Assembly: GCA_947494565.1 (NCBI GenBank)
Contig: CANLVG010000010.1
Span: 124,001 to 188,000 of the forward strand
Origin: an uncultured Flavobacteriaceae bacterium
GTDB lineage: Bacteria; Bacteroidota; Bacteroidia; Flavobacteriales; Flavobacteriaceae
Length of the DNA stretch: 64,000 nt
Direction of reading: 5' to 3'
Every line of letters begins with the position of its first letter. Positions within the stretch are counted from its first letter, which is position 1. The notes below the pieces were generated by a model. The model was not told where the DNA came from, searched no databases, and saw only the letters and a list, made by a program, of their open reading frames with translations. Positions 14,503-32,312 of the stretch are shown piece after piece. Position numbers and translations under genes: made by a program.

Positions 14503-15813
14503 CTAATCGATTAACCCAAACACCCTAGGCAGCCATAAGGAAATCTCAGGAAGATAGGTAATCAAAAAGAGTACCGCGGTCATCGCTCCCAACATGGTCA
14601 ATAAAGGCCTGATGACCTTGGTGACAGGAACCTTGGCCACACCACTTCCTACAAATAACAATGTACCCACCGGTGGCGTACAAATACCGATACAGAGATT
14701 CAAGACGATGACCATACCAAATTGCACGGGATGCATACCCAATGCAACCGCGACCGGTAGAAATATGGGAGTGAAAATGAGTACCGCAGGGGTCATATCC
14801 ATAAAGGTACCTACGACAAGCAAGATGATATTGATCAGTAGGAAAATGACAATAGGATTGCTAAATGAATTCAACAGGCCATCGGTCAACATTTGGGGAA
14901 TTCCCTCGAAAGAAAACAACCATGACATAACCATAGAGGTCGCCACCAAGAACATCACAATTGCAGTAGTCTTGGCACTTTTCAATAATACAGGTCTAAA
15001 ATCGCTGAATTTCAATTCTTTGTTTATAAAGCCAAGTAAGGCCGCATAAACAACCGCGATGGCTGCTGCCTCGGTTGCGGTGAAAATTCCGGCAACGATT
15101 CCACCCACGACAATAATTAGCAGCGTAAGACTAAGAAAGGCATTTTTGAAATCAATGAACAGTTGTTTGAAACCCACTCGTTTCGCACGCGGTAAACCCC
15201 TCCTTTTCGCATAAAGGAAAATCATGAACATAATCGCTAGGCCTACCAAAATTCCCGGTACATAACCCGCAATAAAAAGAGCTGCCACAGAGGCGGTACC
15301 TCCACTGGCGAGAGCGAAAATAATCAGCACATTACTCGGTGGAATCAATAGTCCGGTGGTCGAAGAACTGATATTCACCGCAGCGCTGAATTCCCTTGGA
15401 TAGCCCTCATTCTCCATTTGGTCCGTCAATGTACTTCCAATAGCAGAGGCCGCAGCGACAGCCGAACCGGAAATAGCCCCGAATAACATGGCCGAAATCA
15501 CATTGACAAAGGCAAGACCACCTGGCAAACTCCCGATCAACGATTTCGCGAAATCGATGAGACGTTGGGCGATTCCCCCTCGATTCATCAACTCACCTGC
15601 GAGTATAAAAAAGGGGATGGCCAATAAGGCAAAATTATCGATTCCCGTGGTCATCCGTTGACAGGCCGTGGTTACCGAGGGCAAGAAAGCAATGTTCAAC
15701 AACAAGGTCAACATAGTAGACATTCCGATGGAATAGGCTACCGGCACTCCATACGCCAGAAGCGCAAAAAAGCTTATAAAGAGCACAATAACACTGATAA
15801 TTTCAATACTCAT
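14503..15813 (-). CDS. TRAP transporter large permease (DctM-like)
   Basis: 436 residues, almost entirely hydrophobic with about 12 membrane segments. Family motifs include 'AIPFFILAGELMNRGGIAQRLIDFA', SAMLFGAISGSAVAAASAIG and GICTPPVGTLLFVG. DctM-type subunits form the elevator/transport unit of sodium-coupled TRAP systems in the inner membrane. Its start directly abuts the stop of the small permease gene. With UxuA, UxuB-like and UxaC encoded around it, the expected cargo is a hexuronate (glucuronate, galacturonate or a related acid). This is context-based but fits known TRAP uronate transporters. Confidence 0.93.
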   Translation of the reverse strand: MSIEIISVIVLFISFFALLAYGVPVAYSIGMSTMLTLLLNIAFLPSVTTACQRMTTGIDNFALLAIPFFILAGELMNRGGIAQRLIDFAKSLIGSLPGGLAFVNVISAMLFGAISGSAVAAASAIGSTLTDQMENEGYPREFSAAVNISSSTTGLLIPPSNVLIIFALASGGTASVAALFIAGYVPGILVGLAIMFMIFLYAKRRGLPRAKRVGFKQLFIDFKNAFLSLTLLIIVVGGIVAGIFTATEAAAIAVVYAALLGFINKELKFSDFRPVLLKSAKTTAIVMFLVATSMVMSWLFSFEGIPQMLTDGLLNSFSNPIVIFLLINIILLVVGTFMDMTPAVLIFTPIFLPVAVALGMHPVQFGMVIVLNLCIGICTPPVGTLLFVGSGVAKVPVTKVIRPLLTMLGAMTAVLFLITYLPEISLWLPRVFGLID

Positions 15814-16287
15814 CTATTGAAAGTTTAATTTTTTAATATTGTAAATCGCAAAAAATATGATAACCATTCCTGATAGGGGTACTATCGCGTAAACGTAACC
15901 CAATGGTACATTGAGGGCAGATGATATTTGCCCAAGACTAAGGGTTGTATATACCAAATTGCCTCCGCCAATGACCATAATAATCAGCGCAAAAATGGCC
16001 ATAATTACTTGAATCACTTTTTGACGCCCGTGTCTTTTTGTTTCAGGAAGTTTGGATAATAGAAAGTCCATCGATAGATGGCCTTCTTTTTGTCCATTGA
16101 TATAAGCCGCTCCTAAAACGGTCAACCATATCAGTGCAAAGCGCGCAAACTCTTCGGTAAACGAGCTCGATTTACCCACTACATAGCGAGAAATCACCTG
16201 CCAGACCACATCCAATACCAAGAGTGAAAATATAGTCACTAAAAGCCATTCTATGGCGGTATTGAGAAAGCGATAGGTTTTTTCCAT
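15814..16287 (-). CDS. TRAP transporter small permease (DctQ-like)
   Basis: 157 residues with four hydrophobic helices and the DctQ signature FARFALIWLTVLGAAYINGQKEGHLSMDFL at about 45-74 (the conserved arginine/glycine loop). It is the membrane scaffold subunit partnered with DctM. The ATG at 16287 overlaps the TAA stop of the solute-binding protein gene (TAATG), consistent with translational coupling, and its stop abuts the dctM start. Confidence 0.92.
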   Translation of the reverse strand: MEKTYRFLNTAIEWLLVTIFSLLVLDVVWQVISRYVVGKSSSFTEEFARFALIWLTVLGAAYINGQKEGHLSMDFLLSKLPETKRHGRQKVIQVIMAIFALIIMVIGGGNLVYTTLSLGQISSALNVPLGYVYAIVPLSGMVIIFFAIYNIKKLNFQ

Positions 16288-17282
16288 TAGTTTGAATTGA
16301 TTTTGTCGATAATGGTCTTCATTTTTGGGTCTTTCATCAAGTTCTCCATGACCGGCAGTGATTTTTCCTGAAAAGGCGCTTTATCCGGATAGGTAAACTG
16401 CACCCCATTTTCCTTCAACATTTTCATTTGTTCTACTATGGTCTCTTTCCAAAATTGTTTTTGCTTCACTACACTTTCCTTGGCCGAAGCCCGAAGCCAT
16501 TCTTTCTCTTGATCGGATAGCTTATCCCAAAATTTCGTACCGATAATGACCACATCAGGAATCATGGTATGTTCATCGAAAGTATAATACTTGCAAACTT
16601 CAAAGTGATTGGAAGTTACAAAAGATGGGATGTTATTCTCTGCACCATCCACAACATTCTGCTGCAAGGCGGTATATAATTCACTAAAAGCCATGGGTGT
16701 AGCCGCGGCTCCCAAGGTATTCGCCATGGCTACCGACATTTTATCGTTCTGCACACGAAGTTTCAAGCCCGTTAGATCTTCAGGAGAATTGATGGGTTTC
16801 TCTTTGGTATAAAAACTACGGGCGCCCGCATCGTAAAAACAGAGCCCCCGAAGGAGGTACTCACTGCCGCTGGACAGAAGCTGTTCACCCACTTCTCCTT
16901 CGAGATTGCGCCATAAATGGGCATCATCACGAAAAAGGTACGGTACTACGGTCACCTGATATTCGGGAGCGAAATTGGACAAAGCCGAGGCGCTTACTTT
17001 TGTAATAGCGATACTACCGATTTGTAAAAGTTCCAATACTTCCCGTTCAGATCCCAGTTGCCCATCTGGGAAAACCTTGATGCGTAATTCGCCACCAGAT
17101 TTTTCATTCAAGATCTTTTGCATTTCGAGTATCCCCTTATGAACGGGATGGGAAGTGGGCAGAGAATGTGCAAAATAGAGCACTTTACCGTCACTCACCC
17201 CTGAGCAAGAAGTCAATAGCAAACAGAGGAAAACAAGCGTACATACCGCGATTCGTTTTTTGGAATTTTTCAATAGTATCAT
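16287..17282 (-). CDS. TRAP transporter solute-binding lipoprotein (DctP-like)
   Basis: 331 residues. The signal peptide ends in the lipobox LLLTSC (Cys26), so the binding protein is membrane-tethered. Conserved elements are FAHSLPTSHPVHKGI, FPDGQLGSEREVLE, and the LTGLKLRVQN segment, whose arginine (Arg176) is the residue that salt-bridges the substrate carboxylate across DctP-type proteins. GAAATPMAFSELYTALQQNVVDGAENN completes the signature. Only 3 bp separate it from uxuA and 1 bp overlaps dctQ, so it is part of one operon. A carboxylate-binding arginine fits a uronate ligand. Confidence 0.93.
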   Translation of the reverse strand: MILLKNSKKRIAVCTLVFLCLLLTSCSGVSDGKVLYFAHSLPTSHPVHKGILEMQKILNEKSGGELRIKVFPDGQLGSEREVLELLQIGSIAITKVSASALSNFAPEYQVTVVPYLFRDDAHLWRNLEGEVGEQLLSSGSEYLLRGLCFYDAGARSFYTKEKPINSPEDLTGLKLRVQNDKMSVAMANTLGAAATPMAFSELYTALQQNVVDGAENNIPSFVTSNHFEVCKYYTFDEHTMIPDVVIIGTKFWDKLSDQEKEWLRASAKESVVKQKQFWKETIVEQMKMLKENGVQFTYPDKAPFQEKSLPVMENLMKDPKMKTIIDKINSN

Positions 17283-17285
17283 CTC

Positions 17286-18479
17286 TTATATCAAGCTTTC
17301 ACGAATTCCTCTTTCCAATCCCGACAACTGTGCCAAGCCCATCGCCCGGCCTATCAAGGAATACCCGGAATAAAAATCGGCTTGCCTTTTTTTGTCGTCC
17401 AACAATACATGACCGTGGTCGGGACGCATAGGAATCATAACCTCTTCGCTACCCTTCTCATGACGTCGCTTTTGCTCCAACACAATAGCTTTCATCACTT
17501 GGTCTATAGGAACGGATCCATTTAAATGTTCTGCTTCATAAAAACTTCCATCCGGACTTCTGGCCACATTTCTCAAGTGAATAAAATGAACTCGATTTCC
17601 GAAATCCGAAATGATCTTCACCAGATCGTTCTCCTCGGATGCTCCTAAAGAACCTGAACAGAAGGTCAAGCCATTGCTTGGCGAAGGGCAACAGTTCAAT
17701 AAAAACTTCAAATCATCGTAGTTCGATACGATTCTTGGTACACCAAAGACGGAAAAAGGTGGGTCATCAGGATGAATCGCCATTTTCACACCTATCTTTT
17801 CCGCTTCGGGAATAATCGCATTCAAAAAATAGGACAGGTTTTCCTGAAGTTTTTCCTTACTGATCTGCAGAACGGTTTCATGGTTCTTCTTAAACTGCTC
17901 TAAGGCAATTAGTTTTCGTGAACCCGGCATTCCGGCCAAAATCGATTGCTCCAGCTTTTTCCGTTCCGCTGCGGATAGGTTTTCGAAATAATTTTCCGCC
18001 TCAAGGTAAATGCTTTCCTCATAGGTTTCTTTCGCATTTTCGCGCTTAAGGATAAACAAATCGAATGCAGCAGCGGCAATGGGACTATAGCGCAATGCTG
18101 AACCTCCGGTAGGAAGCATATAGTCCAAATCGGTCCGTGTCCAATCAATGAGTTGCATAAAATTGTAGCATACGGTATGTATGTCATTTTCGGCGAGATT
18201 CTTCAGGGTCTGAATATAATTGGCGATGTAGCCATCCCTATCGGGATGCCCATACTTTATGGAAGTGTGGATATTCACACTTTCTACCACCGACCACTCC
18301 AATCCGTGAGATTCGATTTCCTTTTTTAAGGCCGCTATGGTCGCTACGGGCCACACTTCCCCTAACGGAACTTCTTGGCAGGCCGCTACAATACCTTCGA
18401 CCCCAATCTGTTTAATATCATCAAGGGTCACCCCGAAAGAGGGACCGAACCATCGAAATGTTTTTTTTAAATACTCCAT
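17286..18479 (-). CDS. uxuA: Mannonate dehydratase
   Basis: 397 residues from ATG 18479 (MEYLKKTFRWFG). A longer frame begins at 18509 but would overlap the upstream SDR by 29 bp and add ten residues not typical of the family. UxuA dehydrates D-mannonate to 2-keto-3-deoxygluconate in the cytoplasm. Hallmarks are FRWFGPSFGVTLDDIKQIG at the N-terminus, MAIHPDDPPFSVFGVPRI (metal-binding His/Asp region), LTFCSGSLGA, VHFIHLRNV and MRPDHGHVLLDD. It is encoded between the SDR mannonate oxidoreductase and the TRAP binding protein. The next enzymes (KDG kinase and aldolase) are not in this window. Confidence 0.95.
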   Translation of the reverse strand: MEYLKKTFRWFGPSFGVTLDDIKQIGVEGIVAACQEVPLGEVWPVATIAALKKEIESHGLEWSVVESVNIHTSIKYGHPDRDGYIANYIQTLKNLAENDIHTVCYNFMQLIDWTRTDLDYMLPTGGSALRYSPIAAAAFDLFILKRENAKETYEESIYLEAENYFENLSAAERKKLEQSILAGMPGSRKLIALEQFKKNHETVLQISKEKLQENLSYFLNAIIPEAEKIGVKMAIHPDDPPFSVFGVPRIVSNYDDLKFLLNCCPSPSNGLTFCSGSLGASEENDLVKIISDFGNRVHFIHLRNVARSPDGSFYEAEHLNGSVPIDQVMKAIVLEQKRRHEKGSEEVMIPMRPDHGHVLLDDKKRQADFYSGYSLIGRAMGLAQLSGLERGIRESLI

Positions 18480-18480
18480 A

Positions 18481-19299
18481 CTAAACTCCTGAAAATGAAC
18501 TAAACCCACCGTCTACATCAAAAATACTACCCGTAACAAAACTCGAAGCGTCGCTTAAGAGATAATGCACCGTTCCGTTCAATTCGGAAGCATTTCCAAA
18601 ACGCCCCATGGGGGTATTCACAATGATACTCTTTCCCCTTTCCGTAAAAGAACCATCTTCGTTGGTTAGCAGACGCCGGTTTTGATTCCCGATGAAAAAT
18701 CCCGGGGCAACGGCATTCACTCGAATTTTATCTCCATGTTTCGAAGCGAGTTCATTGGCCATCCATTTGGTAAATATATCTACTCCGGCCTTGGCCATAG
18801 AATACCCCAAAACCCTGGAAATGGTCTGCTTCGCTGCCATAGAAGATATATTGACTATAGTTCCATGACCCTGCCTTACCATCAACTCACTCAAAACAAT
18901 GGTAGGTACCACTGTTCCAAAAAGGTTGATGTCTACTACCTTCCTTGTATCTTCTACCGCAATGTCATGAATGGTTTGGTCCGGTTTCAGTGTCGCTCCA
19001 GGAATGTTACCTCCCGCTAGGTTGACGAGTCCGTCCAAACGACCGAAATCGTTTTGTATGGCTTCCCTTACCTTTATCAACGCGGCCTCGTCCATGACAT
19101 CCACCACAAAAAAATAGGCACTATCGGGGGCTATCCTATTCAGTTCTTTCTGCTTGGCCTTTAACTTATCAACGGACCTGCCTAACAAGATTACTTTCGC
19201 ATCATTTTTCACTAGGTATTCCGCTATGGAACCTCCCAAGGTACCGGTTCCGCCCGAAAGGGCATAGTAATTATCCTTTAAAGATAGTAGTTCACTCAT
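18481..19299 (-). CDS. SDR-type D-mannonate oxidoreductase (fructuronate reductase)
   Basis: 272 residues; glycine motif SGGTGTLGGSIAEYL near residue 16, NLAGGNIPGAT, NISSMAAKQ, and YSMAKAGVD as the Tyr-x-x-x-Lys site. The Bacteroidota/Firmicutes SDR form of UxuB has this length and the TPMGRFGNASEL..GTVHYLLSDASSFVTG C-terminal part. Expected role: NADH-dependent reduction of fructuronate to mannonate, feeding UxuA encoded immediately downstream (one-base gap). The neighbouring uxuA and the uxaC on the other arm make this more likely than a generic SDR. It abuts the Gfo/Idh lipoprotein gene. Confidence 0.85.
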   Translation of the reverse strand: MSELLSLKDNYYALSGGTGTLGGSIAEYLVKNDAKVILLGRSVDKLKAKQKELNRIAPDSAYFFVVDVMDEAALIKVREAIQNDFGRLDGLVNLAGGNIPGATLKPDQTIHDIAVEDTRKVVDINLFGTVVPTIVLSELMVRQGHGTIVNISSMAAKQTISRVLGYSMAKAGVDIFTKWMANELASKHGDKIRVNAVAPGFFIGNQNRRLLTNEDGSFTERGKSIIVNTPMGRFGNASELNGTVHYLLSDASSFVTGSIFDVDGGFSSFSGV

Positions 19300-20679
19300 T
19301 TACTTTTTTTTTGCCATTTTATAGGCCGCTGTGGTAGTATAATATTTGGTCATCATATTCGGTACTTCCCAATCGGGAAGCTTCCCTTCTTTTAAATATC
19401 TCAAGTAATTTTTAGTGACTTGGGCAAAATGCGCTTCGTGCCCGATCTTAAAGGTATCGGGAATATTGATTTTCCAAATACCATTCGACATTTTTTCGGC
19501 AGTAGTACCAGGAAACAACGTTTGAATTTCACCCGCCACAGCTTTGTTCAAAGACGCTTCAAAGGGTTCTTTCCGGGTGGGCTGAATGTAAAGCACCGGC
19601 TTATACGCCTCTTCTTTCCCTTGCTTGATAATTAAGTCACACTTTGTACCCCGCATAATACTATAATGCGTATCGCCCGTACCCTCTGGCGCTTGATAAT
19701 TCCAAATGACGGAGACCTTTGCGTACTTCCCTTTTATGGAATAGATCATTTCACCATTGGAATAGGTATGTAGTTGATCGTCGACCACATCTTTTATCAA
19801 ATACTCGGGATAATCGCCAAGTTTGGTCACCTTGGAGAACTCTTCTTTCGTCAAGACGGTCGGCCAACGTTTCGCCTTCACCATTCGCACCTCCGATGAA
19901 TCAATAACCTGCTCTGGAAAAGCTTCCCATTGCACCAAATCGACCAAATGAGTAGTGACATCTACAATGCCCTCACCTTCTTCGTTTACGTCAAAAAACC
20001 AAGGGGGTCTTACCAGCGGGTTTCCCGAAACATATTTAAAGAAGTGATGTACACTTTCCTTGCTTATTGCAGGATTGTCGGGAGTGCCATCAACCAACTC
20101 ACCAAAAACCTCAGGGAGCATGGAGAACTGCTTTTGCATCATGGTGGTCGATTCAAAGCGTTCGGTCATGATATCATATATCAGCACATTTTTCTCATCG
20201 GCCACGCGAAAAGCTTCCTGCAATTTTCCAAAACCTTCCGGATTGATTACCAATGGCTTATCAGCATATACATTCAAACCTGCTTTAACTGCTTCGAGGA
20301 TATAGTCTATTTTCTTGGAATTCTTGCCGGCCACGATCATCACATTTCCTGGCTGCTTCGAAAGCATTTGCTGCAGGTAGTCATCACCAAGTTCGGGGTT
20401 TACCTGCCAGTCCGTCGGGGATTCAACTCTCGAATTGTACTGGTCGATTTTGATGAGGAAATCTTGAACCTCAGGACCATCAGGAGCGAACACAAAAATG
20501 GTAGAATCGACCTGTGGATACATCGTCTTGTGCACAAGGGCCGCATGAAAATGCCCTGGATCCAAAGTCATCAGTTTTACATTATCCATGGTTGGCATCA
20601 TCGTATTCTGCTTTTCGGACTTTTTTTCCCCACAGGAAAAGCCGAGAGCAACAAGTAAAATTACTAAGGTGTATTTCAT
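19300..20679 (-). CDS. Gfo/Idh/MocA-like lipoprotein with oxidoreductase C-terminal domain
   Basis: 459 residues from ATG 20679, which gives a clean lipoprotein signal (MKYTLVILLVALGFSC). An ATG at 20736 overlaps the upstream stop as TAATG and would add 19 residues before the signal. The Rossmann start reads VKLMTLDPGHFHAALV, so the usual GxGxxG loop is replaced by D-P-G-H-F-H. VYADKPLVINPEGF keeps the 'xKP' turn of the family, and the C-terminal half resembles the Bacteroidota-specific putative oxidoreductase C-terminal domain. The sequence predicts a membrane-anchored, non-cytoplasmic enzyme. It forms a tandem pair with a second Gfo/Idh gene. Substrate unknown; an oxidised or eliminated uronide is my inference. 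Confidence 0.82.
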   Translation of the reverse strand: MKYTLVILLVALGFSCGEKKSEKQNTMMPTMDNVKLMTLDPGHFHAALVHKTMYPQVDSTIFVFAPDGPEVQDFLIKIDQYNSRVESPTDWQVNPELGDDYLQQMLSKQPGNVMIVAGKNSKKIDYILEAVKAGLNVYADKPLVINPEGFGKLQEAFRVADEKNVLIYDIMTERFESTTMMQKQFSMLPEVFGELVDGTPDNPAISKESVHHFFKYVSGNPLVRPPWFFDVNEEGEGIVDVTTHLVDLVQWEAFPEQVIDSSEVRMVKAKRWPTVLTKEEFSKVTKLGDYPEYLIKDVVDDQLHTYSNGEMIYSIKGKYAKVSVIWNYQAPEGTGDTHYSIMRGTKCDLIIKQGKEEAYKPVLYIQPTRKEPFEASLNKAVAGEIQTLFPGTTAEKMSNGIWKINIPDTFKIGHEAHFAQVTKNYLRYLKEGKLPDWEVPNMMTKYYTTTAAYKMAKKK

Positions 20680-20735
20680 TGAATTTAAATAAAGAACTGG
20701 CCTAAACCAACTATAACCCGTATTTGGTATTGGCA

Positions 20736-22112
20736 TTACATTTTCACATAGTCGGTACCATAAGGCTTACGTTGCGCCCGGTGTAACAGCGCATTAGCCT
20801 CGTCATCATTGACAAAGGTTTCGGTTTCAGGATTCCAATCGAGTTTTCTATCAAATTGCATCGCAATATCACTGATCAAACAGATGGCGCAGGCTTTATG
20901 TCCTTTTTCAATAGGGGAAATCGGTTGTTCTCGTGATTTGATACAATCTAACCAGTTTCCATGTTGATCCTCGATTTTTTCGAGATGGATTTCATTTGCT
21001 CCAATAACGGAAGAAAGTATGTTCGGATCCGAGGCATTTAGTGCCTTGGCACTCTTCTCTTTATCTACGGGATCGGAAGCGGAAGCTTGATAGGCACCGC
21101 GTGAAACGAATATCCATCCGTCATCACCGATATATTTGATTCCGTTCGTATACCCACCACTGGTATATACAGTCATTCCATTTTCATACTCGTGTTTCAC
21201 TAAGAAATCACCGTGAACGTTCCAAAATCCTGATTTGGGAAACTCGGACAAGGCTTCGACTGAAATCGGACCCGTCAATTCGGTATTCATTCCCCAAGCC
21301 GCTGAATCATAATGGTGCTGGCCCCACCCTGTTATCATACCCGCACCATAATTTCGGTGGCGCAACCAACCCGGACGACTATAATCGTTTTGCGGGTGCA
21401 CCCCTATTTCATTATAGGGCAATTCAGGGGTCGACCCCAACCACATTTCATAATTCAAGTTTTTGGGAACAGGCATTTCAGTGACTGCCGGACCTCCCGG
21501 GTCACCTGGCAACCCTATTTTGACGGTGTGTACCTTTCCGATTCTTCCATTTCTAACCAACTCTGCCGCTACCCGAAATTGAGGCATGGCCCGTTGTTGG
21601 GTACCTACCTGCAAAATCACTTTCTTTTTTTGAACTGCTGCTTGTAACTGCTGTCCTTCTTTAACGGTCAACGAAGTAGGTTTTTGAAGATAGATGTCCT
21701 TACCAGCCAAAGCAGCTTCCATAGCAGGTTGTGAATGCCAATGGTCAGGCGTACTGATCATTACCGCATCAATATCTTTATTCAAAAGCATTTCGCGATA
21801 ATCCCCATAGGTCTTGGTATCCATATACTTTTTCTTGCCCGTCTTTTCTTGATAGGCCTTATCAACAAAGGCCTTCGCCTTATCAACCCGTATGGAATCT
21901 ACATCACAGACGGCCATTATTCTGGCCTGATCGAACTTCAGGGTATCATGCATATCATGTGATACGGCAATACGCCCACAACCGATTTGGCCGATGTTGA
22001 TCTTATTACTTGGGGCATCTTTGCCCAGTACACTAGCTGGTACTATACTTGGAAATCCGACGGCCGCTGCCGTGCCCAAAGCCGTTTTATTGATAAAATT
22101 CCTTCGTTTCAT
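20736..22112 (-). CDS. Tat-exported Gfo/Idh/MocA family oxidoreductase
   Basis: 458 residues. The N-terminus MKRRNFINKTALGTAAAVGFPSIVPA is a Tat-like signal with an RR motif, implying export with bound nicotinamide cofactor. The Rossmann motif is IGQIGCGRIA; YLQKPTSLTVKEG holds the 'xKP' lysine turn, and GWGQHHYDSAAWGM carries the His-x-x-Asp-like catalytic region. Members act on sugars, often oxidising a ring hydroxyl or, in GH109-like cases, cleaving glycosides by an NAD-dependent oxidation/elimination route. Position between a DUF6807 gene and a second Gfo/Idh in a SusC/D operon supports a periplasmic glycoside-modifying role (inference). Confidence 0.9.
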   Translation of the reverse strand: MKRRNFINKTALGTAAAVGFPSIVPASVLGKDAPSNKINIGQIGCGRIAVSHDMHDTLKFDQARIMAVCDVDSIRVDKAKAFVDKAYQEKTGKKKYMDTKTYGDYREMLLNKDIDAVMISTPDHWHSQPAMEAALAGKDIYLQKPTSLTVKEGQQLQAAVQKKKVILQVGTQQRAMPQFRVAAELVRNGRIGKVHTVKIGLPGDPGGPAVTEMPVPKNLNYEMWLGSTPELPYNEIGVHPQNDYSRPGWLRHRNYGAGMITGWGQHHYDSAAWGMNTELTGPISVEALSEFPKSGFWNVHGDFLVKHEYENGMTVYTSGGYTNGIKYIGDDGWIFVSRGAYQASASDPVDKEKSAKALNASDPNILSSVIGANEIHLEKIEDQHGNWLDCIKSREQPISPIEKGHKACAICLISDIAMQFDRKLDWNPETETFVNDDEANALLHRAQRKPYGTDYVKM

Positions 22113-22166
22113 AAATTTTGGTTTTATACTGTTTGAAAATCAATGGCGGCTCTCCTTCAATTTTTC

Positions 22167-22184
22167 TCCGTTTACGTTAACGGA
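22167..22184. promoter_or_regulatory. Inverted repeat upstream of the Gfo/Idh gene
   Basis: TCCGTT-TACGTT-AACGGA is a perfect 6-6-6 inverted repeat about 55 bp before the ATG of the Tat-exported oxidoreductase. On the minus strand an AT-rich TATATTTTAC (-7-like) precedes it. It may be an internal promoter/operator in the operon. The half-site differs from the GCAAT sites near susC, so a different regulator is implied if it is functional. Confidence 0.35.
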
Positions 22185-25402: not shown

Positions 25403-25412
25403 TGCTAATTTA

Positions 25413-28400
25413 TTAAAGAGTTAAATCTAATCCGACCGTAAAGAAACGTACCGTAGGTTGACTAATGTTATTTTGAAAATTACCACTGTCATTCACAAAT
25501 CTACCTTCGATATTCAAAGGTTCGGGATCATAGAAATCCCAGTCCTTGGCCCACACCGCCAAATTACGTGCGTTAACGTAAAGCCGTGCATTACGAATGG
25601 AAATCTTCTCTAAAAGATCCGTAGGGAACCTGTAGGCAAGGGTCACATTACTCAGCCTAATAAATGAGGCATCACGATATACGTTGAAGGTCGACGGTCC
25701 GTCGGAAGAAAATAATCTTGAATAATCATTTCTAGGGTTTTCCGGTGTCCAATAGGGTGTTTTGATCGAATTGGTTCTGTCGATAAAACCATTTTTGTTC
25801 CTAGCCTCATTAAACAACCGCTTTTGGCCCCAATTGGAATACATTTCAAAGGAGAAATCAATATTCTTATAAACGGTAAAACTATTGCTCATACCCCATC
25901 TGAAACGCGGTGTACGATGCCCTTGAAATACATTATCCTCCACATCCAATACCCCATCGTTATTTACATCGCGAACTATGAAATCACCAGGCTCTTGCCC
26001 AAAAGCAGCGGCTTCAGCCTCCTGCCCTACCTGCCATATCCCTACCGCTTCACGGCCCCAGATTACATCCGTGGCCTCCCCGATAAAGAGCTGTTCGGTC
26101 AAATCATCGAGTTCATTCCCATTTTCATCGAGATCCCCATAAAGGCTATTGATTTTATTCCGATTCAACGAAAAGTTGAAGTTGGTATTCCATTGAAAGT
26201 TATCGCGATTATAGTTTTGGGTCGCTATCTGAAACTCAAATCCGTTGTTCTGAACCTCCCCAAGGTTGGTAAAAACGCTTTCGAATCCTGTTACGCTCGG
26301 AAGTAAACGTTCTACCAATAGATCATCGGTTATACTATTATAGTATTCGAAAGCACCTTCGATCTTTCCATCCAAAAGGCTAAAATCGAGACCTGCATTA
26401 AAGGCACGGGTACGCTCCCATCGTAAATCATTATTCTCTAAGGAGGAGTTATTGAAGGTAGATACTTGAATAACCTGCCCATTGGCATCGGTATTTAAGA
26501 AGTTACCTGCCTGTAATCTGGAAAGGGAAGCGAAACGTCCAATATTTCGATTGCCATTCTCACCGTAACTTAAACGCAATTTCAAAAAGTTGATTTTTTC
26601 GGACTTGAAGAAATTCTCTTCCGAAATCACCCACGCCGCAGAAGCAGAAGGAAAGTACGCTCTTTTGTTATTCGCACCAAAAGCCGAGAATCCATCACGG
26701 CGAAGTGTGGCGTTAAATATATATTTTGAATCGTAATTATAGCCCAAACGTGTCATGTAGGCATCACCTGTACTGGTAATATCCTCGCTTTCCACCGTCT
26801 GAACCGTACCTCTTTCCAAGCTACTGAAACCTAATGCATCACTGGGAGCAAAAGTATTGGCCTTAGCATTGGTTCTATAACTATTAAATTTTTCCGCATA
26901 GAGTAAAAAAGTGAAATCAAAGGCATGCTTGTCTATGGTCTTGTTCCACCTTAAAATATTATCCAACTGCCATTCATACAATTTTCGAGCTTCTCTTTCA
27001 GCAGAACCTACTTGGTTGTTCGGGTTGGCCGCAAAGGAAACATCATAATACTCTTGAAACTCGAGTCGGTTTACATATCCTAATTCATATGAAAACCCCA
27101 AGGGCAATTTTATTTTTGCATAGATACGCGAGTTAAATGCATTGTTCTGTGTTACCCTCTCGGAAAAAGTTCTCCTCAAGAACGCATTGACCGCCCCGGC
27201 ACCATTATCATCTTGGGGACTCAACCGTATATTCCCTTCATCATCGAATTCTGAACCAAATGGTGATGAGCGCTCAATTTGCAAACGATCGGCGGGTATC
27301 GATTGATTACGATCTCCGTCAGTGGGGTCGATGTTGGTATTTGCGAATTGGGTATTCATACCTACCGTAAGCCAATCGGTAATCTTTGCATCGAGGTTCA
27401 GTCGCGAGCGAACCGCTTCAAATTGCTCTCCGACCGTAATACCCTCATTATCGGTTCGGCCAATCGACCAATAATAGTTCAACCCGCCATTTCTACCAGA
27501 AATACTTGTATTGAATTCATTTCTAAAGCCTGTTTGGTTGATTCTATCATACCAATCGATGCTCTTACCTTCTAAAAAATTACCGATTTCCACATCTTGC
27601 AGACCAATACGGTTTAGCCAGACCCTTTGCGGATCTCCTTGTCCCCCGTCGTACGCCAGCCAATCATCAAGGGAGAGGCCGTTTGGTAGGTTATTGGGGT
27701 TATCGAAAATGCCAGGGTTTTCCCTGGCCTGATTTCCACGGCTACTTTTAAAGACATCGACCCTCCAAGCCGCAAACTCATCTGCCGAATAAGGTCTTTC
27801 TTGAGAGCCATCGACGGCCACACCAACACTGGAATTGATGGTAATGGTCGGTTTGTCGGAAGTTCCTCTTTTGGTAGTGACTATAATTACGCCATTCGCT
27901 CCCCGTGCTCCATATACCGCAGCGGAACTCGCATCTTTCAAAACATCGAGCTTGGCAATATCTTGAGGTGCGATATCCGCTAAACTACCATTAAAGATAA
28001 AACCATCTACCACAATTAACGGAGAAGAATCGGCCGCCAAACTATTATTACCTCGGATTTGGATATTACTAACACCGCTTGGGGAATTGGAGAATCCCAC
28101 CGATAGGCCCGCCACATTACTACGGAGTACATCTGTTACGGAATTGGTAGATTGGTTCGACACCTTTGTTGCATCAAGTTGCGTAATAGCGCCGGTCAAA
28201 TCTTTCTTTTTTGATGATCCATATCCCACTAATACGACCTCATCAAGTGTAGAAGCACTGGGCTCCAAGCTGGCATTGATCTGCGCTTGCCCATTGACGG
28301 GTATCTCTTGCTGGCCATATCCAATATAAGATATGAGCACTATGGCGTTCTGATTCGCCACTTCAAGGCTATAATTACCATCAAAATCGGTAGAAGCCCC

Positions 28401-28580
28401 ATTTGTAGTTCCTTTTTCCACTACTGAAGCACCCGGCAAAGGTATACCCGCCTCATCGGTAATGGTTCCTGTTATCGTAAACCCGGTCTGCGCATAACTG
28501 TAAAAAGAAAACAGTAGCATGAACAGCGCCATCGCTATTTTTCCCCTAGCAGGTTTCGTTTGATTGATTGATTTTTTCAT
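25413..28580 (-). CDS. SusC/RagA-family TonB-linked outer-membrane transporter
   Basis: 1055 residues with signal peptide (about 1-31, ending SYAQ), a carboxypeptidase-D-like domain (FTITGTITDEAGIPLPGASVVEKGT at about 34-58), a TonB-box-like DEVVLVGYG at 113-121, the plug domain (NVAGLSVGFSNSPSGVSNIQIRGNNSL, DVLKDASSAAVYGARGANGVI), and a beta-barrel ending PTVRFFTVGLDLTL. Length and order match SusC proteins that take up oligosaccharides with a SusD lid. It is first in the minus-strand operon, and its promoter carries a palindromic LacI-type site on the opposite side from the lacI gene. No N-terminal anti-sigma-interaction (STN) domain is present. Confidence 0.96.
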   Translation of the reverse strand: MKKSINQTKPARGKIAMALFMLLFSFYSYAQTGFTITGTITDEAGIPLPGASVVEKGTTNGASTDFDGNYSLEVANQNAIVLISYIGYGQQEIPVNGQAQINASLEPSASTLDEVVLVGYGSSKKKDLTGAITQLDATKVSNQSTNSVTDVLRSNVAGLSVGFSNSPSGVSNIQIRGNNSLAADSSPLIVVDGFIFNGSLADIAPQDIAKLDVLKDASSAAVYGARGANGVIIVTTKRGTSDKPTITINSSVGVAVDGSQERPYSADEFAAWRVDVFKSSRGNQARENPGIFDNPNNLPNGLSLDDWLAYDGGQGDPQRVWLNRIGLQDVEIGNFLEGKSIDWYDRINQTGFRNEFNTSISGRNGGLNYYWSIGRTDNEGITVGEQFEAVRSRLNLDAKITDWLTVGMNTQFANTNIDPTDGDRNQSIPADRLQIERSSPFGSEFDDEGNIRLSPQDDNGAGAVNAFLRRTFSERVTQNNAFNSRIYAKIKLPLGFSYELGYVNRLEFQEYYDVSFAANPNNQVGSAEREARKLYEWQLDNILRWNKTIDKHAFDFTFLLYAEKFNSYRTNAKANTFAPSDALGFSSLERGTVQTVESEDITSTGDAYMTRLGYNYDSKYIFNATLRRDGFSAFGANNKRAYFPSASAAWVISEENFFKSEKINFLKLRLSYGENGNRNIGRFASLSRLQAGNFLNTDANGQVIQVSTFNNSSLENNDLRWERTRAFNAGLDFSLLDGKIEGAFEYYNSITDDLLVERLLPSVTGFESVFTNLGEVQNNGFEFQIATQNYNRDNFQWNTNFNFSLNRNKINSLYGDLDENGNELDDLTEQLFIGEATDVIWGREAVGIWQVGQEAEAAAFGQEPGDFIVRDVNNDGVLDVEDNVFQGHRTPRFRWGMSNSFTVYKNIDFSFEMYSNWGQKRLFNEARNKNGFIDRTNSIKTPYWTPENPRNDYSRLFSSDGPSTFNVYRDASFIRLSNVTLAYRFPTDLLEKISIRNARLYVNARNLAVWAKDWDFYDPEPLNIEGRFVNDSGNFQNNISQPTVRFFTVGLDLTL

Positions 28581-28648
28581 ACATGTGGTTTTAAGTTAGG
28601 TGAGTTATTAAATAGTGTTCTTATGTAGGGAACTAGGTTCAAGCTCAG

Positions 28649-28680
28649 CAAATCTATAGAATCAAATTCATTTACGCAAT
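28649..28680 (-). promoter_or_regulatory. Promoter of the susC operon
   Basis: On the minus strand, ATTG at 28680-28677 and TAGATTTG at 28656-28649 are about 20 bp apart, matching the Bacteroidota pattern TTTG-N19/20-TAnnTTTG with a perfect -7 box. It is about 70 bp from the susC ATG. The -33 element lies inside the palindrome GCAATCGATTGC, so a bound repressor would block it. Confidence 0.6.
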
Positions 28681-28689
28681 CGATTGCAT
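28674..28689. promoter_or_regulatory. Palindromic LacI-type operator
   Basis: ACGCAATCGATTGCAT contains the perfect 12-bp palindrome GCAATCGATTGC (28676-28687) with a central CG step, typical of LacI-family operators. It overlaps the -33 box of the susC promoter and lies 160 bp from the divergent lacI gene. The half-site ACGCAA recurs near the lacI promoter. Assignment to this regulator is inference from position. Confidence 0.6.
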
Positions 28690-28723
28690 TATTATTTAAT
28701 CAAAATATTGCATTTATTGCATT
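28683..28723 (+). repeat. Three direct copies of ATTGCATT
   Basis: ATTGCATT occurs at 28683-28690, 28707-28714 and 28716-28723, the first overlapping the palindromic operator. Regularly placed half-sites beside an operator can be auxiliary binding sites. Alternatively they reflect AT-rich sequence. The half-site shares TTGC with the palindrome. Confidence 0.4.
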
Positions 28724-28780
28724 AGTATTATTAAAAATAGCCTTCAATACTTACGTTTATGGCTATTTTTTTAACAAGTA

Positions 28781-28811
28781 TTTAGAATTTTCACGCAATT
28801 ATATAATTTTG
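28781..28811 (+). promoter_or_regulatory. Promoter of lacI
   Basis: TTTA at 28781-28784 and TAATTTTG at 28804-28811 are separated by exactly 19 bp, fitting TTTG-N19-TAnnTTTG with one -33 mismatch, and lie 38 bp before the ATG of the regulator. Confidence 0.5.
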
Positions 28812-28817
28812 TTGCGT
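28793..28817. promoter_or_regulatory. Inverted ACGCAA/TTGCGT pair around the lacI -7 box
   Basis: ACGCAA (28793-28798) and TTGCGT (28812-28817) form an inverted repeat with a 13-bp spacer that encloses the TAATTTTG -7 box. ACGCAA is also the left arm of the palindromic operator at 28674, so the regulator may repress its own gene from this site. Confidence 0.4.
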
Positions 28818-28848
28818 AAGTTTGTTGCTCCACAACTATTGCTAGCGA

Positions 28849-29862
28849 ATGACGAAAAAAGTAACCATCTATGATCTTGCTGAACTATTAAAGGTATCCC
28901 CTGCTACGGTAAGTAGAAGTTTAAACGACCATCCTTCCATCAGCGAGGACACCAAAAAAAGAATACTTTCCGCGGCTAATAAACATGGGTATCGTACCAA
29001 CAAATTTGCTGCAAACCTGAGAAGGCAAAAATCGAATACCATTGGCGTAATCGTGCCCAGACTAAACTCTTATTTTATGTCTACGGTTCTCGCCGGAATC
29101 GAACAAGTAGCCAATAAAGTAGGCTATAATTTGATTATCAGTCAGTCTTTAGAATCGGAAAAAAAGGAAAAAATCAACGCAAAAACCTTATTGAATAGTG
29201 GAGTCGATGCCCTATTGGTCTCTCTAGCCTATGAAACCACCGACTATGAACACTTCAAAAAATACACTAGTAGAAAAATTCCACTGCTATTTTTTGATCG
29301 GGTGTTTGATTTGCCCAATTGCCCAACAATCGTTATTGACAATAGAGCTGCAGGTTACGAAGCGACGGAACATCTAATCGAACAAGGTTGTCAAAATATC
29401 TTGCACATAAGCGGAAATCTGAACCGAAAGGTCTATAAAAATCGTTTTAAAGGGTATAAGGCAGCTTTAGGGAGTAATGGCATTAAATTTACAATGGACA
29501 ACCTTTTAGAAACGGATTTAGATCCAAAAAAAGTCGACGACGCCCTTGACTATATTAAAAAATCAAAGAAAAAAATAGACGGTATTTTCGTTTCTAGCGA
29601 CAATTTTGCCGCCAATCTTATCAAGGAGTTGAAAAAGTCGGGATTCGCAATTCCCGAAGACCTCAAAGTAATCGGGTTCAACAACGACCCAGTTTCCGAA
29701 ATCATCAGTCCGAATTTGACCACTATCGATTATCCCGGCTTTAAAATGGGGGTACTTGCTGGAGAAAGTATTATCGCCCACCTGAATGGCAACATCAACT
29801 TACAATCCACAAATTCAATTGTCTTGCGCCACGAACTGATTGTGCGAGAATCTACATCATAA
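28849..29862 (+). CDS. LacI-family transcriptional regulator
   Basis: 337 residues. The N-terminal helix-turn-helix VTIYDLAELLKVSPATVSRSLNDHP (about 5-29) is followed by the hinge and a periplasmic-binding-protein-like effector domain (TIGVIVPRLNSYFMSTVLAGIEQVA at about 61-85; FFDRVF; IDNRAAGYEATEHLIEQGC; GFNNDPVSEIISPNLTTI). It is divergent from susC and followed closely by ThuA and uxaC genes, so it probably controls both arms of the hexuronate locus, releasing DNA when a pathway sugar acid binds. The effector is not readable. Operators are proposed at 28674-28689 and 28793-28817. Confidence 0.94.
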   Translation: MTKKVTIYDLAELLKVSPATVSRSLNDHPSISEDTKKRILSAANKHGYRTNKFAANLRRQKSNTIGVIVPRLNSYFMSTVLAGIEQVANKVGYNLIISQSLESEKKEKINAKTLLNSGVDALLVSLAYETTDYEHFKKYTSRKIPLLFFDRVFDLPNCPTIVIDNRAAGYEATEHLIEQGCQNILHISGNLNRKVYKNRFKGYKAALGSNGIKFTMDNLLETDLDPKKVDDALDYIKKSKKKIDGIFVSSDNFAANLIKELKKSGFAIPEDLKVIGFNNDPVSEIISPNLTTIDYPGFKMGVLAGESIIAHLNGNINLQSTNSIVLRHELIVRESTS

Positions 29863-29880
29863 TCCATTTAAACCCTATAC

Positions 29881-30810
29881 ATGAAACCAATTTACACCTT
29901 CATTACATTACTATTCCTCGCCTGCAGTAGTATTCAACTATCCGCTCAAAGCCTAGAGGCAATCAAAATAACGGAGGAATGGAAATCCAAAATTGAAAAC
30001 CTTGCCCCTACCCAACTTACGGTACCGAATGTCACTAAAAAGAAGATTTTAGTTTTCTCAAAGGCAACGGGTTTTGACCACTGGACCATTCCACATAATG
30101 CCGAAATGCTAAAAATCTTGGGCAAAAAAACCAATGCCTTCGAAGTACATATCAAATATGACATCGAACAGTTCGAAAAAAAGAATTTGAAAAAATACGA
30201 TGCGGTCATTTTCAATAATTGCAATCCCAGTGGTCCTGATCGTGATCTTTTTTCCGATTTACTGCGACAAAACACCTCACTGTCCGATGCCGAAATCAAG
30301 AACAAGGCATCTGTATATGAAGCCAATATGATGGCCTATGTGGCCAAAGGAGGAGGCTTGATGATATTGCATGGCGCCATTACCGTTCAGAACAATTCCA
30401 TGGCCTTTAGCAAGCTGACCGGAGGGAGTTTTGATTATCATCCCAAGCAACAGGAAATTCATGTCAAGGAAGTGGATAAAAACCATCCTATGGTACGGGC
30501 TTTTAAGGGAAAAGGACTGGTTCATGTTGACGAACCCTATTTTTTCAAAAATGCGTATTTCGACTATAATTTCAGGCCCTTGCTCTTCATGGAAGTAGCC
30601 CAGTTAGAGGGATTGAAAAAAGAAGTAAAGGAAAAAGTCGTTTATGTATCATGGATTAAAAAACATGGTAAAGGACGTGTTTTTTACAGCTCGCCATCAC
30701 ATAACGCCCACAGCATGAACAATCCAGAATTACTTCAATTTTTTCTTGATGGGTTACAATATGTTGTTGGGGATCTCAAATGCGACGATAGCCCCATGAA
30801 ACGCTCTTGA
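29881..30810 (+). CDS. Secreted ThuA-domain protein
   Basis: 309 residues with a hydrophobic export signal (about 1-22, ending SAQ; a cysteine in LACSS might alternatively be lipidated). The body is a ThuA-like class-I-glutamine-amidotransferase fold: KKKILVFSKATGFDHWTIPHNAEML, YDAVIFNNC, YVAKGGGLMILHGAI, HPMVRAF, YVSWIKKHGKGRVFYSSPSHNAH. ThuA proteins are linked to trehalose and other disaccharide use in loci with Gfo/Idh oxidoreductases, but their chemistry is poorly defined. It is 18 bp downstream of lacI and precedes uxaC, so it belongs to the uronate regulon. The signal peptide predicts a periplasmic role. Confidence 0.88.
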   Translation: MKPIYTFITLLFLACSSIQLSAQSLEAIKITEEWKSKIENLAPTQLTVPNVTKKKILVFSKATGFDHWTIPHNAEMLKILGKKTNAFEVHIKYDIEQFEKKNLKKYDAVIFNNCNPSGPDRDLFSDLLRQNTSLSDAEIKNKASVYEANMMAYVAKGGGLMILHGAITVQNNSMAFSKLTGGSFDYHPKQQEIHVKEVDKNHPMVRAFKGKGLVHVDEPYFFKNAYFDYNFRPLLFMEVAQLEGLKKEVKEKVVYVSWIKKHGKGRVFYSSPSHNAHSMNNPELLQFFLDGLQYVVGDLKCDDSPMKRS

Positions 30811-30908
30811 GTGAGGCCTAGCAAATTTTGTTCCTAGGTACTTTTATGCTAGGTATTTCGACCGACATCTTTAAATATTTTACACTAAAAAAGAGTTACT
30901 AGAGACTT

Positions 30909-32312
30909 ATGTCCCATTATATTGGCCCTGACTTTTTATTGGAAAATCGCTATTCGAAGGAACTGTATCATGACTACGCACATTCCATGGCTATCATTGA
31001 CTATCACAATCATCTGTCTCCTTCCCAAATAGCCAATGATGTCATTTTTCAAAACCTTACCCAGGCTTGGATACATGGCGATCATTATAAATGGAGGGCT
31101 TTAAGAACCCTAGGGATTGATGAAAAGTTTATCACCGGTAGCGCATCGGATGAAGAGAAATTTCTCAAATGGGCGTATGCCGTACCCTTCACGATGCGCA
31201 ACCCCTTATACCACTGGACCCATTTGGAACTTCAACGTTATTTTCAAATCACCGATGTGTTGCGACCAGACAATGCCCTTGCTATTTATGATGAAGTTGG
31301 GCAAAAACTACAATCTCCTGAGTATAGTTATAGAAGTCTGCTGACCCACATGAACGTGGCGTATTTGTGCACTACCGAGGATCCCACCGACACACTGGAG
31401 GATCATGGAAAAATCGCAACCGCTAATTTCAAGACAAAGGTGAGCACTGCCTTTAGGCCTGACAATGCCATACATATCGACAGTACCCAATTTAATTCAT
31501 ACTTACAACAATTATCGAAGGTCACCGGAGCGGACATCAGCACCTATGACCAGCTTTGTGATGCTTTGGCCAACAGAATCACATACTTTCATGAAAGGGG
31601 TTGCAGAATTTCCGATCATGGTCTTCCGCACTTATATTCGGAATCGTTCACAGAGTCCGAAATTAAATCGATTTTCAAAAAGAAAATCGAAGGTCGAACC
31701 ATTACCCAAAAAGAGGTTCGCCAATATAAGTGCGCCCTTCTGTTATTTTTATCAAAAAAGTATCATGAATATGATTGGGTACAGCAATTTCATCTAGGAG
31801 CGTTACGAAACAACAATACGCGTATGTACGAAACGCTCGGTCCGAATACGGGTTGGGATTCCATTGGCGATTGGTTACAGGCTGAACGGCTATCCAAATT
31901 CTTGAATAGGCTCGACAGCGAAAACGCCCTATGTAAAACCATTATCTACAATCTCAATCCAAGGGACAATGAGGTCATGGCAAGTATGGTAGGAAACTTT
32001 AACGACGGTTCGATCAAGGGAAAAATACAATTCGGCTCCGGGTGGTGGTTTTTAGATCAGAAAGAAGGTATGACCAATCAAATCAATGCCTTGTCAAATA
32101 TCGGATTACTCAGTTGCTTTGTTGGGATGTTGACCGACTCAAGAAGTGTGCTTTCCTTCCCTAGACATGAATATTTCCGCAGAATTCTTTGCAATATTTT
32201 CGGCAAGGAAATCGAAAACGGAGAGTTGCCTACCGATATCAAGTGGATCGGGAAATTAATTCAAGATGTTTGCTATCACAATGCAAGGTCTTATTTCAAT
32301 CTTGAACTATGA
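30909..32312 (+). CDS. uxaC: Glucuronate isomerase
   Basis: 467 residues, the normal UxaC length, in the amidohydrolase-like superfamily. The metal-binding motif MAIIDYHNHLSP is near residue 30; other blocks are LRTLGIDEKFITGSASDEEKF, CTTEDPTD, FSDHGLPHLYSE-like RISDHGLPHLY, LGPNTGWDSIGD and FPRHEYFRRILCNIFG at the C-terminus. It interconverts glucuronate/fructuronate or galacturonate/tagaturonate. With the SDR reductase and UxuA it completes the route to KDG. It is the last gene of the lacI-ThuA-uxaC arm, cytoplasmic. No strong terminator was seen after it. Confidence 0.96.
   Translation: MSHYIGPDFLLENRYSKELYHDYAHSMAIIDYHNHLSPSQIANDVIFQNLTQAWIHGDHYKWRALRTLGIDEKFITGSASDEEKFLKWAYAVPFTMRNPLYHWTHLELQRYFQITDVLRPDNALAIYDEVGQKLQSPEYSYRSLLTHMNVAYLCTTEDPTDTLEDHGKIATANFKTKVSTAFRPDNAIHIDSTQFNSYLQQLSKVTGADISTYDQLCDALANRITYFHERGCRISDHGLPHLYSESFTESEIKSIFKKKIEGRTITQKEVRQYKCALLLFLSKKYHEYDWVQQFHLGALRNNNTRMYETLGPNTGWDSIGDWLQAERLSKFLNRLDSENALCKTIIYNLNPRDNEVMASMVGNFNDGSIKGKIQFGSGWWFLDQKEGMTNQINALSNIGLLSCFVGMLTDSRSVLSFPRHEYFRRILCNIFGKEIENGELPTDIKWIGKLIQDVCYHNARSYFNLEL

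Follow-up and report, generated by a model that had tools for sequence, protein, structure and literature searches.

A SusC/D-type glucuronate locus without a classical glycoside-cutting enzyme in an uncultured Flavobacteriaceae bacterium: a candidate half of a two-locus oxidative pathway

We analysed a stretch of 64,000 nucleotides (the window) from the genome of an uncultured Flavobacteriaceae bacterium (assembly GCA_947494565.1, contig CANLVG010000010.1, positions 124,001 to 188,000 of the forward strand). Our subject is a locus at positions 14503-32312 of the window, where 13 genes related to glycan uptake, sugar oxidation and glucuronate catabolism are arranged in two divergent arms flanking positions 28581-28848. 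The genes were called from Pfam and NCBIfam profile matches of the 13 proteins. These matches support every gene that had been named in an earlier reading of the same DNA (the original prediction), each at the place given there: SusC/D, DUF6807, two exported Gfo/Idh proteins (here Gfo and OxC), ThuA, a short-chain dehydrogenase/reductase (SDR), UxuA, the tripartite ATP-independent periplasmic (TRAP) transporter DctPQM, LacI and UxaC. The features are as follows:

14503..15813, minus strand: TRAP large permease DctM (PF06808, 397 bits)
15814..16287, minus strand: TRAP small permease DctQ (PF04290, 93 bits)
16287..17282, minus strand: TRAP solute-binding protein DctP with a lipoprotein-type leader (PF03480, 287 bits)
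17286..18509, minus strand: UxuA mannonate dehydratase (PF03786, 394 bits; NCBIfam uxuA, 465 bits, cut-off 200)
18481..19299, minus strand: SDR, D-mannonate oxidoreductase (fructuronate reductase) (NCBIfam NF006132, 312 bits, cut-off 281)
19300..20736, minus strand: OxC, exported Gfo/Idh-fold protein with a PF16490 C-terminal domain and a lipobox (PF16490, 447 bits)
20736..22112, minus strand: Gfo, exported Gfo/Idh oxidoreductase with a twin-arginine translocation (Tat)-type leader, candidate glycoside 3-dehydrogenase (PF01408, 65 bits; PF19051, 75 bits)
22221..23483, minus strand: DUF6807 lipoprotein with a predicted mutarotase/uronate-lyase-like beta fold (PF14100, 206 bits)
23537..25402, minus strand: SusD-like glycan-binding lipoprotein (PF07980, 188 bits)
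25413..28580, minus strand: SusC-like TonB-dependent transporter (PF13715; plug PF07715, 61 bits)
28674..28689, no strand: predicted operator of the local LacI, ACGCAATCGATTGCAT, a palindrome in the divergent promoter region
28849..29862, plus strand: LacI-family regulator (PF00356, 53 bits; PF00532)
29881..30810, plus strand: secreted ThuA-domain protein (PF06283, 120 bits)
30909..32312, plus strand: UxaC glucuronate isomerase (PF02614, 654 bits; NCBIfam, 601 bits, cut-off 387)

In transcription order, the minus arm reads SusC, SusD, DUF6807, Gfo, OxC, SDR, UxuA, DctP, DctQ and DctM, and the plus arm LacI, ThuA and UxaC. With UxaC, the SDR and UxuA all above their NCBIfam cut-offs, the path from glucuronate to 2-keto-3-deoxygluconate (KDG) is complete, as had been predicted. 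Leaders were judged by eye from the translations: a Tat-type leader (MKRRNF) was seen on Gfo, a lipoprotein-type Cys on OxC and DUF6807, and a Sec-type leader on ThuA, while none was seen on the SDR, nor in the first 90 residues of UxuA and UxaC. From these leaders, we put Gfo, OxC, DUF6807 and ThuA as predicted extracytoplasmic proteins and the SDR, UxuA and UxaC as predicted cytoplasmic ones. The true start of OxC is probably about 20 residues inside the mechanical open reading frame (ORF), where the alignment of most orthologs begins, and UxuA may start at an ATG slightly downstream, just within its GTG-started ORF. The best PDB sequence matches of DctP are 4n8y, 4ovr, 4mhf, 4mij, 4n91 and 4x8r, which we take to be uronate-bound structures; the TRAP transporter would therefore carry the free acid, and cleavage would have to precede TRAP import.

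The SusC/SusD tandem expected of a polysaccharide utilisation locus (PUL) is present in the window, and its other mark, at least one carbohydrate-active enzyme (CAZyme), was not found among the 13 proteins (Pfam, E<=0.001). No glycoside hydrolase (GH), polysaccharide lyase (PL) or carbohydrate esterase (CE) family had a match under these settings, which agrees with the original prediction that nothing recognisable in the locus cuts a glycosidic bond. The 13 proteins also include no PF06439 3-keto hydrolase, a family present in a sister locus of the same genome (see below). Nor does the locus hold an exported PF01261 eliminase; the cytoplasmic UxuA matches PF01261 below its cut-off. Some Gfo/Idh-fold enzymes are NAD-dependent glycosidases themselves (GH109), so that "no hydrolase" concerns families and not chemistry. 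CAZyme-type searches of the whole genome covered PF15979, PF07488 and PF06439. GH67 had no match in this genome and GH115 a single weak one (56.6 bits), a 705-aa frame adjoining SusC/D at another locus (L141, G000:C7:113501-133400).

A glycan phosphorylase lies 3 kb past the locus, at 35419-38820; it matches the beta-1,3-oligosaccharide phosphorylase 6hq6 with 1567 bits, and no leader was seen on it. This 1133-aa protein, which has no Pfam match, was considered as the missing uronide enzyme and rejected, as residues 1-1132 align to 6hq6. It looks unrelated to the uronate locus. Positions 33960-40386 form a beta-1,3-glucan set, made of a major facilitator superfamily sugar transporter, the 6hq6-like protein and a second sugar transporter.

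Then, we examined the two exported Gfo/Idh proteins. The best NCBIfam model for Gfo is the "glycoside 3-dehydrogenase" BT_2158 (NF058561), with 133 bits, the equivalog cut-off of 750 not being reached. Its best PDB sequence matches are 8tdf (81.4 bits) and 8tdh (77 bits), and 8tdi, a "glucuronide-3-dehydrogenase", follows at 36 bits. Gfo/Idh dehydrogenases have a catalytic Lys and an Asp/His motif; in Gfo, K144-P145, H266, H267 and D269 do not vary across 77 sequences, a set in which some genomes are represented more than once, so that the window does hold an exported Gfo/Idh protein with these residues. To judge from these alignments, Gfo is only distantly like known glycoside 3-dehydrogenases, yet it keeps the predicted catalytic set. 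For OxC, the AlphaFold2 (AF2) model has a predicted local distance difference test score (pLDDT) of 86, and its closest fold is 4oo3, an entry without a named function (53% identity, template modelling score (TM-score) 0.94 by target length). K160-P161, D259 and H263 of OxC are invariant in 41 sequences.

The AF2 model of DUF6807 (pLDDT 87) gives the PL26 exo-rhamnogalacturonan lyase 5xqo as its top Foldseek match (E 2.4e-6), with HepC lyase and mutarotases below. The TM-score to the lyases is 0.56 at best (by query length) and the root-mean-square deviation (rmsd) at least 8 Å, so that the comparison concerns the fold class alone: DUF6807 is predicted to have the mutarotase-type beta fold common to PL26 lyase, HepC lyase and mutarotases. 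Its residues H176, H177, D262 and R389 are invariant in 39 sequences. The PDB search with the DUF6807 profile returned three matches only, with E of 0.9 or more, and the PDB sequence search with ThuA returned none. The roles proposed below for these two proteins are guesses. Within the open-access literature on DUF6807, PF14100 and PF16490, the accessible texts of PMC5342196 and PMC10971088 contain no test of function; in the former, two novel beta-galactosidases are described as possible operon partners of a PF14100 gene.

The locus was then compared with those of relatives, in which genes were called by a simple ORF caller and identified by blastp. The named loci are the best 80 of 107 found with OxC, with flanks of up to 10 kb, some ending at contig ends; 12 further stretches came from relatives and 25 from a phylum sample (117 in total, some genomes occurring twice in the 80 + 12 = 92). 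Gfo was found in 73 of the 80 named loci, ThuA in 60, DUF6807 in 57, the SDR in 38, LacI in 37, UxuA in 34, DctP in 33, SusC in 31, SusD in 27 and UxaC in 5. These counts are lower bounds where flanks end, and paralogs can inflate those of Gfo, SusC and the SDR. Gfo-OxC forms the constant unit; DUF6807 usually lies upstream of it and ThuA on the opposite arm. Many Flavobacteriaceae have the SDR, UxuA and TRAP genes next, an order that Euzebyella and Algoriphagus do not show.

Some additional genes accompany this core. A protein that combines a DUF7133 with a cytochrome c domain (NCBIfam PVC-type heme-binding; one member scanned) occurs in 24 of the 92 OxC loci (e.g. L026:15259-17562), directly in the operon in 8 of the 80 named ones, and is absent from the 13 window proteins; other OxC loci have planctomycete cytochrome proteins, or a cupredoxin that matches DUF7133 weakly. 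This suggests that the DUF7133/cytochrome c protein serves in some species as an extracytoplasmic electron acceptor for sugar oxidation. A URO-D-type protein is present in the operon of the core in 4 of the 80 loci (L091, L092, L101 and L102, from Prolixibacteraceae, Bacteroidales and Phycisphaerae; one member scanned). PF00884 sulfatase-family genes stand beside DUF6807 or Gfo in L018/L040 (one genome), L024, L084 and L092 (the L018 member was scanned), hinting at sulfated uronides.

We also looked for the link between this core and glucuronate genes at the scale of the phylum, in a sample of 395 Bacteroidota genomes. PF16490 was found in 30 of them and UxaC in 139. UxaC is present in 29 of the 30 PF16490 carriers vs. 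110 of the 365 other genomes (Fisher test, P = 1.8e-13, kinship uncorrected), and in 28 of 29 carriers when the genome of the window is removed (P = 5e-13). Altogether, 40 genomes with PF16490 over the cut-off were seen, 36 of which were used for positions; G008, G013, G277 and G420 were left out because the match was fragmented, on a short contig or at the end of a contig, and G020, whose 20.7 bits fall below the cut-off, was not counted. The expected numbers assume uniform placement and independent genomes, and several genomes share one genus. On this basis, DUF6807 lies within 6 kb of PF16490 in 25 of the 36 carriers (0.22 expected), and UxaC within 15 kb in 7 of the 36, the genome of the window included (0.30 expected). 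These distributions indicate that the Gfo-OxC core is linked to glucuronate.

The genome of the window has one other DUF6807 gene, which belongs to the following locus:

L028, G000:C13:160601-180600, same genome: sister locus with SusC/D, LacI, two PF06439 genes, DUF6807, Gfo/Idh and a second UxaC

The order in this sister locus is SusC, SusD (by blastp), LacI, PF06439 (200 aa), DUF6807, Gfo/Idh and PF06439 (457 aa, matched in two stretches), with UxaC divergent. Its UxaC shares 64% identity with that of the window and its Gfo 24%. The 457-aa protein matches the PDB entries 4jqt (569 bits), 8tda (129 bits) and 8rr2, a "3-keto-disaccharide hydrolase domain" (129 bits). A similar arrangement was found in G002, G012 and G031, and in G007, where the first PF06439 gene was not called separately; the LacI-sized ORF of the G007 and G031 sister loci is unmatched by blastp. 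In G002, G012 and G031, the sole genomic UxaC match stands beside PF06439, and the TRAP genes are at the OxC locus (L018, L022 and L025), where SDR-UxuA were also called in G002 and G012. In G237, the genes SDR-UxuA-DctP-DctQ-DctM-PF06439-UxaC-LacI follow each other in one direction, and G373 has LacI-Gfo-PF06439-SDR-UxaC. Among the matches listed (150 of 462 PF06439 matches in carriers and 150 of 214 in 50 controls), PF06439 and UxaC stand no more than 5 kb apart in 8 of 36 carriers, compared with 1 of 50 non-carriers that bear UxaC (P = 0.0035). The 50 controls were picked by the analyst from 110 such genomes, PF06439 genes are more numerous in the genomes of carriers, and one genus supplies four of the eight carriers with the pairing. 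The enrichment is suggestive only. PF06439 as a regular operon partner of PF16490 was rejected, since among the 117 loci blastp placed it in the operon at L093 only. The genome of the window has 19 PF06439 domain matches and, near SusC/D, another Gfo-PF06439-Gfo cluster (L142, G000:C4:317501-337400), i.e. several parallel 3-keto systems.

We also compared the divergent regions between LacI or ThuA and the core, available for 58 of the 80 named loci and for the window (59 in total). The palindrome RYGCAAYCGRTTGCRY, which was derived from these regions, is present with at most 2 mismatches in all 38 regions that bear LacI, window included, and in none of the 21 regions without a LacI ORF in view; 8 of these 21 carry TCGTTAACGTTAACGA instead (0-2 mismatches). 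In 3350 base-shuffled sequences, the first palindrome occurred 0 times and the second 7 times when 3 mismatches were allowed. The sister locus of our genome has a perfect TCGTTAACGTTAACGA between the 457-aa PF06439 gene and UxaC and a two-mismatch copy before SusC; the palindrome is found with one or two mismatches at the equivalent place in G002, G007, G031 and G012. In G002 and G007, it is present at both loci of the same genome (with two mismatches at the OxC locus of G007). In relatives of this type, the OxC locus thus appears, from these predicted sites, to fall under the same regulator as the PF06439-UxaC locus, whereas loci like that of the window carry their own LacI with its own operator, to which we infer that this LacI binds. 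The original prediction had named a distant CAZyme under the same LacI regulator as a finding that would speak against it. Such a link to a distant enzyme is suggested in relatives (G002 and G007), but not in our genome, whose 5.39 Mb contain the local operator without mismatch only once, in the window locus. A distant CAZyme under this operator was rejected there: one perfect and two one-mismatch sites were found, the latter both inside ORFs, vs. two sites for a control pattern read backward.

These observations lead us to regard the window locus, with a probability of about 0.55, as the uptake, oxidation and catabolism half of a two-locus oxidative (3-keto) glucuronide pathway, cut in trans by the PF06439 proteins of the sister locus. 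SusC/D would bring a glucuronide into the periplasm, where Gfo, probably with a bound nicotinamide cofactor, would oxidise it, most likely at C3. The glycosidic bond would then be opened, most likely by the sister-locus PF06439 proteins, and the 3-keto uronate reduced back, OxC being the candidate ketoreductase (or else the second Gfo), with DUF6807 and ThuA as possible accessories (anomer inversion, elimination or hydration). The TRAP transporter would import the free glucuronate, to be processed in the cytoplasm by UxaC, the SDR and UxuA to KDG. Strong family matches support import and the cytoplasmic steps; the C3 oxidation, the cleavage and the reduction are inferred. An oxidative cut, with its likely cutter in a partner locus, would explain why the locus has no classical sugar-cutting enzyme. 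What holds of the original prediction is an exported redox module linked to uronate, with Gfo nearest to glycoside 3-dehydrogenases; that the exported proteins alone release the uronic acid is put in doubt by the two PF06439 genes beside a second UxaC and by the sister operator in 8 of 21 LacI-less cores. The idea of an oxidative route is left standing, since PF06439 proteins fall outside the classical CAZymes.

Several observations weigh against this two-locus pathway. The nucleotide-binding turn of OxC is changed, with DPGHFH in place of the GCG of Gfo, and its cofactor use is thus uncertain. The comparative search for the same gene set, which retrieved Gfo, ThuA and DUF6807 so often with OxC, showed no SDR, UxuA, UxaC or TRAP ORF in view in 35 of the 80 named loci; not every core therefore has a uronate gene in cis. 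Seven Algoriphagus loci carry an epimerase-like gene and an aldo-keto reductase after OxC in place of the uronate genes, and the substrate may differ in these loci (L085-L109). Outside Flavobacteriaceae, the core of some carriers adjoins classical xylan enzymes (GH67, GH115 or CE15-like). PF06439 is found within 10 kb of PF16490 in 0 of 36 carriers (among the 150 of 462 matches listed), and a PF06439-like ORF within about 10 kb in only 3 of the 117 OxC loci by blastp (L078, L093 and L104). Counted by genus, the PF06439-UxaC pairing drops to 5 of 26 vs. 1 of 24 (P = 0.19, among the matches listed). Moreover, 13 of the 21 loci without a LacI ORF carry neither operator, and the window and sister loci of our genome have different operators; the two loci might serve different glucuronides. 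Finally, the genome-wide search for ordinary glucuronidases covered GH67 and GH115, and an ordinary beta-glucuronidase (GH2, GH79 or GH88/105) may lie elsewhere in the genome.

Cleavage by the exported proteins of the window alone, a strict form of the original prediction, with Gfo oxidising C3, DUF6807 or ThuA eliminating the aglycone, OxC reducing the product and no partner locus, seems possible but rather unlikely. The predicted fold of DUF6807, nearest to PL26 lyase, and its four invariant residues speak for it, as does the fact that PF06439 is seldom near the core. The PF01261 family holds 3-keto-glycoside eliminases, and L096 and L098 have a PF01261 barrel protein with an export-type leader before OxC, so that OxC is elsewhere paired with candidate lyases. 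But no DUF6807 ORF separates ThuA from Gfo in the closest Maribacter relatives (L030-L032), the sole DUF6807 match of G002 is in the PF06439 locus, the core and the PF06439 locus of relatives are tied by a common operator, and the structural scores of DUF6807 reach the fold class only. Equally tentative is the more specific idea that DUF6807 is a new uronide-cleaving class, whose lyase fold eliminates the aglycone from the 3-keto-glucuronide made by Gfo before ThuA adds water and OxC reduces the keto group; the window locus would then be a self-contained, redox-neutral and hydrolase-free system for glucuronic acid release, running alongside the PF06439 route in the sister locus.

It is unlikely that the core handles uronic acid already freed by ordinary enzymes, e.g. 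by converting 4-O-methyl-glucuronate from glucuronoxylan to glucuronate for UxaC. Such a role would fit several carriers, and in L110 and L128 the core stands within loci of the glucuronoxylan type: G110 (L110) has GH67, SDR, GH115, Gfo/Idh, Gfo, OxC, an acetylesterase, a CE15-like gene and GH3; G300 (L128) a CE15-like gene, DUF6807, Gfo, OxC, a cupredoxin, DUF7133, an FG-GAP protein, a weak GH30-like gene and GH115; and G359 (L129) a CE15-like gene with GH67 12.6 kb off (these three CE15-like calls by blastp only). GH67 occurs in 17 of 36 carriers, L105 has a CE15-like domain and L100 a GH67 N-domain, and the URO-D-type family, seen in 4 of 80 operons, includes methyltransferases. Yet neither our genome nor the four same-genus carriers searched have a GH67 match, GH115 reaches only the weak 56.6-bit match in our genome and lies within 12 kb of PF16490 in just 2 of 36 carriers (0.09 expected), and the sister locus points to 3-keto chemistry. 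That Gfo or OxC would be a GH109-kind NAD-dependent glycosidase, with a single active site for oxidation, elimination, hydration and reduction, is very improbable: the fold is shared and the OxC Foldseek list includes 8qc8, an "NAD-dependent glycoside hydrolase", but Gfo reaches the alpha-N-acetylgalactosaminidase 2ixa with only 35.5 bits vs. the 81.4 of the dehydrogenase 8tdf, the closest fold of OxC is 4oo3, and a one-enzyme glycosidase leaves unexplained why 73 of 80 loci retain two distinct Gfo/Idh proteins. Hardly credible, lastly, is a locus that takes up free hexuronates only, with exported oxidoreductases unrelated to glycoside cleavage. TRAP, UxaC, the SDR and UxuA would suffice for free glucuronate, the single perfect local LacI site of the genome is within the locus itself, and no uronate gene was seen in many of the core loci; but the locus has SusC/D, a system that typically serves oligosaccharides, UxaC is enriched in carriers, and PF06439 stands beside UxaC.

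CAZyme-less loci of this sort are easily overlooked. If the two-locus pathway is true, PF16490, DUF6807/PF14100 and secreted ThuA, three families of which little is understood, would gain from this widespread Bacteroidota module (PF16490 in 30 of the 395 genomes sampled) a concrete and testable place in uronide breakdown, and the missing cutter of a CAZyme-less PUL could be traced to a second locus via the operator of its regulator.

One of the closest described systems is the periplasmic 3-keto-glycoside pathway of Bacteroides thetaiotaomicron. As far as the accessible texts go, the members of PF06439 (DUF1080) include BT2157, which hydrolyses 3-ketotrehalose, and a protein proposed to hydrolyse 3'-ketolactose (PMC9007349), and BT2158 is a periplasmic glycoside 3-dehydrogenase (PMC11300592). 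Our system shares with BT2157/BT2158 the exported Gfo/Idh dehydrogenase and the PF06439 hydrolase, here in the sister locus. In contrast, the window locus has uronate catabolism, PF16490, DUF6807 and ThuA, is without PF06439, and its Gfo is far under the BT_2158 cut-off. The Caulobacter LacABC/DUF1080 lactose route likewise has, in the accessible text, a periplasmic oxidation followed by a proposed DUF1080 cleavage, but its LacABC dehydrogenase is membrane-bound and its substrate is lactose and no uronide (PMC9007349); a control with the DUF6807 family profile also matches in Caulobacter vibrioides. Open-access literature on ThuA with TRAP and glucuronate, 3-keto glucuronide cleavage, glucuronide 3-dehydrogenase and 4-O-methyl-glucuronate catabolism yielded nothing pertinent, and the words "glucuronide" and "glucuronic" are absent from the text of the OGE paper (PMC10628242).

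Among PDB entries, the dehydrogenases 8tdf/8tdh resemble Gfo (81 and 77 bits), and the secreted glycosyl hydrolase 8tda resembles the PF06439 protein of the sister locus (129 bits). Glucuronide 3-oxidation was named earlier in 8tdi ("P2B11 glucuronide-3-dehydrogenase"), with which the Gfo match is just 36 bits. All these entries, together with 8tde, which like 8tda is a secreted glycosyl hydrolase, are reportedly from Kaur et al., Nature 2024. As for the bacterial hexuronate pathway UxaC/UxuB/UxuA, the window has UxaC and UxuA over their cut-offs with the SDR taking the UxuB step; unlike the classic pathway, that of the window would be fed from outside by a TRAP transporter and an exported redox module. 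The 3-keto pathway and a PDB entry named glucuronide-3-dehydrogenase were thus already known, and what would be new here is a uronate-linked, two-locus variant with PF16490, DUF6807 and ThuA.

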